Positions 13,014-16,059 of a stretch of DNA of 64,000 nt are shown here, piece by piece. The translations under genes and the position numbers were made by a program. Origin of the DNA: Polyangiaceae bacterium (lineage in GTDB: Bacteria > Myxococcota_A > Polyangia > Polyangiales > Polyangiaceae); assembly GCA_025936045.1 (NCBI GenBank), contig JAICUB010000014.1:1-64000 (forward strand), given 5' to 3'. The notes beneath the pieces are model-generated. The model saw only the letters and a list, made by a program, of their open reading frames with translations. It ran no database searches and was not told the DNA's origin. Position 1 is the stretch's first letter; each line of letters opens with the position of its first letter.

Positions 13014-14996
13014 TCAGGAGATTTCGGCGTCGGAGGAGGTCGGCGACGAGTCCGGCGCTGAATCCGGGGAGGAATCGGGCGACGAGTCCGGCGCTGAATC
13101 CGGGGAGGAATCGGGCGACGACGAGAAGTCTTCCGAATCTGACGACAAGGGCGGCTCCGACGACGATGAGCCTGACGACGTCGAGCTCGAGGACGGCGAG
13201 CTCGACGTCGGCGACACGCGCGCTTCATCGTCGAGGCGCTTTTCGATGCTGGCGAGCGCGTTCATGATCGACTCGTTCACGAGCTGGATGATGACGGGCA
13301 GCTGGCCCTTGAGCGCCTCGTAGTAGCGCTGGCGTTCGGTCGAGTGCACGATCGCGGGCGGGTAGCCGCCTCGAAGGAGCACGATGTTCATCAGCAGGCG
13401 CGAGACCTTGCCGCTGTCCTGTGCGAACGGGAACACCCGCAAGAGATCGTAGTGAACGCGCGCGCCGACGCGGAGCGGGTTCTTCATCTTCTTGGCTTCG
13501 GGACCGTTCAGCCAATCCATGATTTGCCGCACGCGGTAGGCGATCTTGTCGGGCGCGGCGTACTCGTGGAAGTAGAGGCGGTGTTGCGGAATGTCCTTCC
13601 GATATTTCACCGTCTTCACGTCGCCCTCTTCGGGATGCAACATCACGAACAGGCGCTTGACGACGTCGACGTTGAGCGGGACGCGCTTGCGCTCGCCGAG
13701 ATCGCGCACGTACGCGATCGCCTGGCGATGCCGGCGGATCTCCTCGCATACCGGCTGCATGCTCGAGTCGGGCGTGGCCGTGGATGAGGGATCCATCGCG
13801 GCGCGGAGCTCTTGGAACGTGTAGACGACGCCCTCGAGCGCACTGTCGTGGTGGATCCACGACATCTCGAGCGTCTCCTCGTATTCCTTCTTCAGCGCTT
13901 CGGGAGCGACGGCGAGCCGCTCGAGAATGCGCCGGTAGCGCTCTTCGACGCCCTCGGCGACCGGTGGGAGCGGCAGCGCGGGCGGCGGCGGCGTGCGCTT
14001 TTCCACGGTGGGTAGCGGCGGCGGCGATACGTTCCGCCCCGCGGCATCGACATGCCGCACCCCGACGAGCCGGTGCACGGTCGGCAAGCTCGGGCCCGTA
14101 TGGCGCGTCGTGCCGGCCTGGTTCGGAATCGCGGCGGGGTCGTACACACGGGTCGTGCCCATGCGCAGGCCGTCCATCTTCTGGGCCGCTCGCGTCGCGC
14201 GCGCGACTTTGCCTTCACGCAGCCGACGGGCGGCCTCACGTTCGGCGCGTAGGCGTTCCCGCTCGGCTTCCTTCGCCTTGCGGTAAGCCTCGCGTTCGGC
14301 TTCGCGACGCGTGCGCTCCTCTTCTTTCGCGCGGCGGGCCGCTTCCTTCTGTGCTTCACGCTCGGCGATCAGACGCTTGCGCTCGGCTTCCTTCTCGGCC
14401 TTCTCACGCGCGCGTTCGGCTTCGGCTTCCTTCTTGAGCCGGGCTTTCTCGGCAGCCTCTTGTGCCTTGAGCTTCTCGCGTTCCTTGGCTTGCTGGGCCT
14501 TTTCGCGCTCGCGCTCTTTGAGCTGGCGCTCTTTTTCCTTGGCCTTCAGGGCTTGTTCGCGCTCGCGTTCCTTGGCTTGCTGGGCCTTTTCGCGCTCGCG
14601 CTCTTTGAGCTGGCGCTCTTTTTCCTTGGCCTTCAGGGCTTGGTCGCGCTCGCGCTCCTTGGCTTGCTGGACCTTTTCGCGCTCGCGCTCTTTGAGCTGG
14701 CGCTCTTTTTCCTTGGCCTTCAGAGCTTGCTCGCGCAGGAGCTTGGCCTTTTCGGCTTGCTTTTGCTTCGCGAGCTGCTTTCCGGCGGCCTTGGCGGCAG
14801 CCTTCTTCACGGCAGCCTTCTTGGCAACGGCCTTGGCCTTCACCGGCTTGCGGGGGGGCTTTGCCTTGGCCTTCGGCTTGACGGCCGGTCGCGCGCTTCG
14901 CGCGGCAGACTTCGTCCGTCCACCTTTTGCTGCACGCGCGGTGCGCTTGCCTGTGGCCTTAGTGCGCTTCTTCGGCTGAGTCTTGCGAGCTGACAT
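13014..14996 (-). CDS. Lys/Glu-rich repeat protein with a degenerate Fic-like domain
   Basis: About 660 residues from ATG 14996 (15038 and 15020 are alternatives). Order: a basic Lys/Ala-rich N-terminus (histone H1-like, about 1-85); charged helical repeats (KAKEKERQLKERER..., about 90-270) likely forming one long helix; a Pro-rich linker; then a Fic-family fold. The Fic part has a DSALEGV segment like the inhibitory helix (E388) and VHYDLLRVFPFAQDSGKVSRLL. Against the Fic motif HPFx(D/E)GNGRxxR, the His is F522 and the Asn and first Arg are changed (S, K), so AMP transfer by the usual mechanism is unlikely. The C-terminal tail is acidic and Ser/Pro-rich. It is convergent with the TolC-like gene. 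Confidence 0.75.
   Translation of the reverse strand: MSARKTQPKKRTKATGKRTARAAKGGRTKSAARSARPAVKPKAKAKPPRKPVKAKAVAKKAAVKKAAAKAAGKQLAKQKQAEKAKLLREQALKAKEKERQLKEREREKVQQAKERERDQALKAKEKERQLKEREREKAQQAKEREREQALKAKEKERQLKEREREKAQQAKEREKLKAQEAAEKARLKKEAEAERAREKAEKEAERKRLIAEREAQKEAARRAKEEERTRREAEREAYRKAKEAERERLRAEREAARRLREGKVARATRAAQKMDGLRMGTTRVYDPAAIPNQAGTTRHTGPSLPTVHRLVGVRHVDAAGRNVSPPPLPTVEKRTPPPPALPLPPVAEGVEERYRRILERLAVAPEALKKEYEETLEMSWIHHDSALEGVVYTFQELRAAMDPSSTATPDSSMQPVCEEIRRHRQAIAYVRDLGERKRVPLNVDVVKRLFVMLHPEEGDVKTVKYRKDIPQHRLYFHEYAAPDKIAYRVRQIMDWLNGPEAKKMKNPLRVGARVHYDLLRVFPFAQDSGKVSRLLMNIVLLRGGYPPAIVHSTERQRYYEALKGQLPVIIQLVNESIMNALASIEKRLDDEARVSPTSSSPSSSSTSSGSSSSEPPLSSDSEDFSSSPDSSPDSAPDSSPDSSPDSAPDSSPTSSDAEIS
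13045..13116. repeat. Two 36-base direct repeats in the acidic tail
   Basis: Two adjacent identical 36-base units (13045-13080, 13081-13116) encode the Ser/Asp/Pro tail (SSPDSAPDS-type) of the pseudo-Fic protein. Their length, a multiple of three, keeps the frame. Confidence 0.85.
14460..14720. repeat. Three 87-base tandem repeats encoding KEKERQLKERER units
   Basis: Three near-identical units of 29 codons each (KAKEKERQLKERER + EK.QQAKERER.QAL), the third diverging at its end. They encode the central charged helix of the pseudo-Fic protein. In-frame length suggests recent expansion by duplication. Confidence 0.85.
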
Positions 14997-15222: not shown

Positions 15223-16059
15223 TTAACCGAAGTAATCCGGAAAGATCTCGCTGTTTGCCAGGGGGCCGGCGCGCACAGTGAGAACTTCCGCACCCGTAGC
15301 GGTGACCAAAATCGTATGCTCGAACTGCGCAGAGAGGCGGCCGTCGGCGGTCACGGCCGTCCACTCGTCGTCGAGAATCTTCACCTCGTGTGTGCCGAGG
15401 TTGATCATGGGCTCGATAGTGAAGGTCATGCCGGCTTTGAGCCGCATGCCCTTCCCACGCGTCCCGTAGTGGGCGACCTTGGGCTCGTCGTGGAACTTGC
15501 GGCCGATGCCGTGCCCGACGAAGTCCTCCACGACCGAGCACCCGCGCGCTTCCGCGAACTCTTGAATCGCGGCGCCGATGTCACCGAGCCTCGCGCCGGG
15601 CCGCACCTCGGCGATGCCGAGCTCGAGCGAGCGTCGCGCCACCTCCGTCACGAGCTTCGCTTCTTCGCTCGGCTTGCCGACGTAGAAGGTGGCCGACGTG
15701 TCACCGTGGAAGCCGCGATAGATGTGCGTGATGTCGACGTTGACGATGTCGCCGTCCCGCAGCGGACGTTGCGACGGAATGCCGTGGCACACGACCTCGT
15801 TGAGCGAGGTGCAGATGCTCTTCGGAAATGGCGGGCTGTCGCCGTTGCGATAGTTGAGCGGCGCGGGCTTCGCGCCCTTTTTCAGCGTGTCTTCGTGGAC
15901 GAACTGATTGAGCTCGTTCGTCGTGATGCCGGGGCGGATCAGCTCGGCAACCTTCGACAGCGAGTCGCCCGCGAGGCGCCCGACTTCACGCATCGCGTCG
16001 ATCTCACGCGTGCTTTTGATCTCCACCGAGCTCGAACGAAAATGCAGGTCCAACGCCAT
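15223..16059 (-). CDS. map: Methionine aminopeptidase, type I
   Basis: 278 residues; removes the initiator Met from nascent proteins in the cytosol. All metal ligands are visible: D109 (VNVDI), D120 (GDTSATF), H183 (GHGIG), E216 (FTIEPM) and E247 (QFEHTI), plus H92 (VCHGIP). The N-terminus MALDLHFRSSSVEIKSTREIDAM is slightly longer than the E. coli enzyme, without the SH3-like Zn domain. It is not next to a ribosomal protein operon here. Confidence 0.95.
   Translation of the reverse strand: MALDLHFRSSSVEIKSTREIDAMREVGRLAGDSLSKVAELIRPGITTNELNQFVHEDTLKKGAKPAPLNYRNGDSPPFPKSICTSLNEVVCHGIPSQRPLRDGDIVNVDITHIYRGFHGDTSATFYVGKPSEEAKLVTEVARRSLELGIAEVRPGARLGDIGAAIQEFAEARGCSVVEDFVGHGIGRKFHDEPKVAHYGTRGKGMRLKAGMTFTIEPMINLGTHEVKILDDEWTAVTADGRLSAQFEHTILVTATGAEVLTVRAGPLANSEIFPDYFG

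Follow-up and report, generated by a model that had tools for sequence, protein, structure and literature searches.

The window, by which we mean the whole 64,000-nucleotide stretch of DNA analysed here, carries a minus-strand gene for a protein, here termed pseudo-Fic, whose Fic-like domain is preceded by a basic tail and a long charged helix and followed by an acidic tail (Table 1). The start agrees with that of relatives of the same layout, which open alike (MSARxxK or MAARTKK). Downstream, and on the opposite strand, lies a gene for an outer-membrane efflux protein that follows an ABC transporter pair, and no match to an Rfam family was found in the window.

Table 1. Features of the pseudo-Fic gene and its upstream neighbor, in window coordinates
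Feature	Position	Strand	Basis
Pseudo-Fic gene, 660 aa	13014..14996	minus	ORF with ATG at 14996; Pfam Fic; similar starts in relatives
H1-like basic tail, Lys/Ala/Pro-rich, residues 1-70	14787..14996	minus	Composition; pLDDT <50; similar tails in Polyangiaceae relatives
Single long Lys/Arg/Glu/Ala helix (predicted), residues 71-275	14172..14786	minus	Full-length model, pLDDT mostly 70-90
Three tandem 29-aa (87-nt) units within the charged helix	14475..14736	minus	Tandem Repeats Finder, 97% alike
Linker motif TTRVYDPAAIPNQAGT, residues 281-296, in disordered linker	14109..14156	minus	Invariant positions among relatives
Pseudo-Fic domain, residues 350-599	13200..13949	minus	AlphaFold2 model; FICD structural match
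Inhibitory-helix motif SWIHHDSALEG, residues 379-389	13830..13862	minus	Alignment; Glu388-Gly389 kept, Asp for Ser/Thr
Flap region with YRKDxPxHRxYxH, residues 465-485	13542..13604	minus	Conservation over 105 rows
Degenerate Fic motif FPFAQDSGKVSR, residues 522-533	13398..13433	minus	105-row alignment
Ser/Pro/Asp/Glu tail, residues 591-660 and stop	13014..13226	minus	Composition; predicted disordered
map, methionine aminopeptidase	15223..16059	minus	Pfam Peptidase_M24, 4.6e-55; next gene upstream, same strand

Assignment of the domain to the Fic fold draws on both sequence and predicted structure. Specifically, the protein matches Pfam Fic (PF02661) with 31.9 bits (E 2.4e-7) against a curated cut-off of 24, the same model is matched by 32 of 32 diverse family members (E <= 0.01), and the nearest solved proteins by sequence are FICD/HYPE (phmmer 2e-20; profile 2e-35). 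An AlphaFold2 model of the domain, built from the window sequence and six relatives (pLDDT 85.7, pTM 0.86), finds its best structural match in human FICD (Foldseek 4e-9), on which it superimposes with a Z score of 26.4 and an rmsd of 2.4 over 237 residues (VIA-align); the flap is the least certain part of this model (block pLDDT 53-78). The original prediction had been staked on a Fic-like structure, and the predicted fold does match that of FICD. The domain is thus a true Fic fold. Sequence and structure place the protein in the Fic fold family, but it does not belong to the Fic enzymes, as the defining residues are absent. An NCBIfam assignment to XopAC/AvrAC was discarded, its 22 bits lying far below the cut-off of 450.

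With respect to the catalytic motif, HxFx(D/E)GNGRxxR reads FPFAQDSGKVSR in the window protein. The His is replaced by Phe, the Asp/Glu by Gln, the first Gly by Asp, the Asn by Ser and the first Arg by Lys, whereas the Pro, the Phe, the second Gly and the second (last) Arg are retained; the anion-hole segment GN(G/K)R is replaced by DSGK. The changes of His to Phe, Asn to Ser and anchor Arg to Lys had been read correctly from the start, but the loss of the Asp/Glu and of the first Gly had gone unmentioned. When aligned with FICD, using residue numbers assigned from the motif and from PMC4342408, Phe522 corresponds to His363, Gln526 to Asp367, Ser528 to Asn369, Lys530 to Arg371 and Arg533 to Arg374. 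Across 105 aligned rows, motif position 1 is Phe in 62, Tyr in 35, Trp in 6, and His and Ser in one each, and a conserved catalytic His, which would have counted against the earlier reading, does not appear at the motif, where 103 of the 105 rows carry Phe, Tyr or Trp. At position 5, which is Gln526 here, Lys is commonest in the family and Glu occurs in 12 rows; position 7 is Ser, Thr or Pro in 103 rows, position 9 is Lys in 64 and Arg in 9, and the last motif Arg (Arg533; position 12) is present in all 105. The sole His at position 1 belongs to locus L054 (G054:C309, about 67341-68093), which reads HPFARHSGKLAR and from which the other catalytic residues are absent.

The functions of these residues have been described for FICD. 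In the E234G variant of HYPE/FICD, replacing His363 or Asp367 cuts activity to some 4-6% of the control; the anion hole is made by the GNG segment, and binding of Arg374 to the gamma-phosphate faces competition from Glu234 (PMC4342408). Set against these roles, the losses seen here indicate that the protein no longer has what transfer requires but still has the inhibitory pair. As a control, a further 34 Fic loci from these genomes were screened, and 33 of them keep the canonical motif; the loci were the strongest Pfam hits and hence form a sample that leans to canonical proteins, and the Fic paralogues in these genomes carry HPxxDGN(G/K)R.

The inhibitory helix sits N-terminal to the core, as in class II Fics. 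Glu388-Gly389 align with the inhibitory Glu234-Gly235 of FICD, and Asp384 stands at Thr230. Over the 105 rows Glu388 is found in 101 (Asp in the other four), Gly389 in all, and Asp384 in 99 (Glu in the other six), meaning that the (S/T) position is acidic throughout. The proposal that DSALEG (residues 384-389) represents an inhibitory (S/T)xxxE(G/N) motif is upheld in its Glu-Gly portion, but the (S/T) position is occupied by Asp384 and not by Ser385. In active Fic enzymes, the flap docks the target segment. Within the pseudo-Fic flap, R466 is conserved in 105 of 105 rows, Y475 in 104, and H472 and R473 in 87 each; the f29-like clade does not retain the PxHRxYxH motif. Further near-invariant positions are H383 and R555, together with Y558 (105/105). 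R466, R555, Y558 and H515 are probably structural, since they occur in canonical Fics too.

Relatives were gathered by a contig scan and a whole-genome search, with Myxococcota genomes and the plasmid and viral sets covered at adequate sensitivity. Of 125 well-assembled genomes in the protein's own class (rows labelled own, genus, family, order and class), profile A2 detects the pseudo-Fic in 121. In the rest of the phylum the profile matches 30 of 160 genomes, a few of them through weak hits in families f27, f31 and f46 that prove to be canonical proteins with HPFxDGNGR. The gene was not found in four class-level genomes (G009, G348, G035 and G053); for G009 and G348 a recent loss or an assembly gap is suggested, because their congeners carry the gene. 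In a tree of 129 rows all pseudo rows fall on one side of a single branch (support 82/91), and when nearer canonical relatives are included the His-less rows again lie on one side of a branch (support 100/99), a split that holds counting the f37 rows L177-L179, likewise His-less, with the pseudo rows. The dN/dS of the domain against the closest relative, L002, is 0.077 at a dS of 0.69. Taken together, these observations define a lineage that is old, of single origin, near-core and under strong purifying selection. Moreover, the home genome (86.6% complete) yielded no other Fic, and the pseudo-Fic is the only one found in at least seven relatives (G027, G001, G017, G019, G032, G049 and G056), G027 being a single-contig genome of 12.2 Mb, which argues that it does not depend on a Fic partner.

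Other origins and roles were considered along the way. No relative was found in viral contigs by the profile (one peptide pattern was used), and a phage or viral origin was rejected. Plasmid Fic proteins are <60% identical, the four examined all being canonical. PADLOC hits (PDC-S04, SoFic) reflect mere shared Fic homology, and a defence system was set aside as well. At L187/L191 (G037:C3:11588-12252), a canonical FICD-like Fic extends over two reading frames and may be frameshifted. In terms of gene neighbourhood, map also lies near the pseudo-Fic gene in 13 related loci of its own clade (14 with the window), and other upstream neighbours are likewise clade-specific, namely an aminotransferase class IV gene in 6 loci and a thioredoxin-like gene in 7. 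Among the clustered neighbours of the fetched loci, there was no partner gene universal to all clades. The f29/f57/f37 clade (L115-L138) has ribA (GTP cyclohydrolase II) directly downstream and on the same strand at 15 loci.

Outside the domain, composition and a full-length model agree with the original prediction of a basic N-terminus, a Lys/Glu-rich repeat helix and an acidic tail, although the charged helix and acidic tail prove to be later additions and not part of the family core. The N-terminus has a net charge of +30 over 80 residues with zero acidic residues, and the Ser/Asp/Glu-rich C-terminal tail a net charge of -12 over 70. In the full-length model, built from four sequences (pLDDT 65, pTM 0.41), residues 1-70 are disordered, residues 71-275 make one helix, the Fic domain spans about 350-594, and both the linker before it and the tail after it are disordered. 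At 0.15 nm per residue, the 205-residue helix would be some 30 nm long; residues 81-270 contain no Pro, and the charged character is kept in relatives that have the extension. The three 29-aa units within the window helix are nearly identical and represent a recent expansion. Glu-Lys/Arg pairs are enriched at i,i+1 and i,i+3 but not, relative to shuffles, at i,i+4, and we do not claim a proven single-alpha-helix (SAH) domain even though a helix is predicted. The linker consensus TTRxYxPxAIPNQxGT is common to Polyangiaceae with the long extension and may act as a binding motif in its own right; of the 21 relatives whose domain is preceded by >280 residues, 14 have IPNQ. The same overall layout, which the original prediction had proposed looking for in other Myxococcota, was found in other Polyangiaceae, and relatives outside this family are mostly compact (about 250-320 aa). 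The basic tail, charged helix and IPNQxGT linker were acquired later, by some Polyangiaceae, and the long acidic tail, seen solely in same-genus relatives (L014, L062, L063, L064 and L084), appears as a genus-level feature.

Comparison with known systems places the pseudo-Fic closest to FICD/HYPE, the animal class II Fic that AMPylates BiP, with which it shares the whole fold, the inhibitory Glu-Gly and the last motif Arg. FICD, however, has His363, Asp367, Asn369, Arg371 and Thr230 where the pseudo-Fic has Phe, Gln, Ser, Lys and Asp, and the pseudo-Fic has no TPR but, in some Polyangiaceae, an N-terminal charged helix. Compact bacterial class II Fics (e.g. WP_274996787.1 from a Lysinibacillus plasmid) of about 243-250 aa and ~30% identity have inhibitory helix, flap, motif and RxxYY in the same order. 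These proteins look active because they carry HPFxDGNGRTxR and TYN(S/T)NAIEGN, which the pseudo-Fic does not, and those examined are plasmid-borne, whereas the pseudo-Fic gene is near-core within a bacterial class. The FIC domain of the Bartonella effector BepC has been concluded to work by protein binding without catalysis (PMC7842960), but BepC keeps the His and GNGRxxR, with only the Asp/Glu changed to Lys, and is a translocated effector that also contains OB and BID domains. AvrB resembles the pseudo-Fic in having a Fido fold without the Fic catalytic motif; it is far more remote (Z 11.7), and is a rhamnosyltransferase and plant-pathogen effector (PMC10866546). Clade-level loss of the His is already known from Doc proteins, where clade D2 is a natural clade with the catalytic His replaced (consensus Qx[FY]x[DE][GV]NKR; PMC4454073), though these proteins are of Doc type, the substitution is to Gln and not to an aromatic residue, and the rest of the motif is intact.

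The reading that we favor, and consider reasonably likely, is that the pseudo-Fic derives from a class II FICD-like Fic, lost its transfer machinery once and early, and was kept as a non-catalytic protein-binding module. The ancestor would have been an N-terminally inhibited enzyme, its nucleotide-transfer machinery would have been lost in part of the Myxococcota, and the protein would have persisted as near-core ever since. Binding is probable in preference to catalysis because active-site residues have been lost and yet the gene is kept under strong selection, and the suggestion of a "binding or scaffold protein" made in the original prediction is probably the best reading. The domain would be fixed in a single state in which Glu388 probably lies near Arg533, and a partner would be bound through the flap and the inhibitory-helix face. 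As a precedent, the BepC FIC domain acts on GEF-H1 without catalysis; the flap is not needed for that action (PMC7842960), which weakens the case for the flap as a binding face. In some Polyangiaceae the H1-like tail and the ~30-nm helix would have been added, probably to tether and space the domain on DNA, RNA or another polyanion; for the H1-like tail, composition points to nucleic-acid tethering perhaps. By analogy only, the pairing of a module for protein binding with a tail that binds DNA is reminiscent of myxobacterial CarD (PMC4374960).

The main rival to protein binding is that the protein is an enzyme with new chemistry, in which the pocket has been rebuilt from Asp384, the HRxYxH flap and Tyr558 to transfer another group. 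Near invariance of H383, D384, R466, Y475, R533, R555 and Y558 speaks for this idea, as does AvrB, a Fido protein with a divergent motif that rhamnosylates RIN4 (PMC10866546). We nonetheless regard it as unlikely: R466, R555, Y558 and H515 are shared with canonical Fics, the inhibitory Glu is retained, and no single phosphate-binding arrangement is conserved, given that the f29-like clade has lost HRxYxH and that K, T, R or V may stand at motif position 9. A second rival, a dominant-negative regulator whose dead domain pairs with canonical Fics or binds their modified substrates and so restrains them, would fit the co-occurrence of canonical Fics in many relatives and the dependence of FICD activity on oligomeric state (PMC6826200). 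Conservation of the pseudo-Fic where it is the sole Fic found, in the home genome and the seven relatives, stands against this and makes it very improbable.

Hardly different in standing, and if anything a shade less probable, is weak canonical AMPylation or deAMPylation with another residue standing in for the His. FICD uses its inhibitory Glu in deAMPylation. That Glu and the last Arg are kept in the pseudo-Fic, and L054 has a His at position 1, but L054 is without the remaining catalytic residues, the family has lost the metal ligand, the Asn and the first Arg besides the His, and in HYPE/FICD E234G loss of His363 or Asp367 alone already lowers activity to the 4-6% given above (PMC4342408). 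As to a decaying, functionless gene or an artefactual ORF in a GC-rich genome, the degenerate motif and the recent 29-aa repeat expansion are what might be cited in its favor; the dN/dS, the presence in 121 of 125 class genomes and the invariant residues over 105 rows rule it out, leaving it a negligible probability.

Fic proteins have been studied almost wholly as enzymes, whether as toxins, as effectors or, in FICD, as an animal chaperone regulator, and to our knowledge reports of non-catalytic use are rare. No description of the myxobacterial pseudo-Fic lineage was found in the open-access literature searched. For annotation, the Pfam label Fic is a hazard, as it would make a reader assume an AMPylase. 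An old, vertically kept lineage that has the fold, the inhibitory Glu and the Arg but no catalytic residues offers a testable case, and it raises the question of what a Fic domain does when no group can be transferred. It is conceivable, though we hold this more tentatively than the binding reading itself and at somewhat less than even confidence, that these class-wide dead Fics act as constitutive protein-binding hubs in housekeeping scaffolding, attached to DNA in some Polyangiaceae by the H1-like tail and 30-nm helix. If that is true, the Fic fold would serve housekeeping scaffolding in free-living bacteria.
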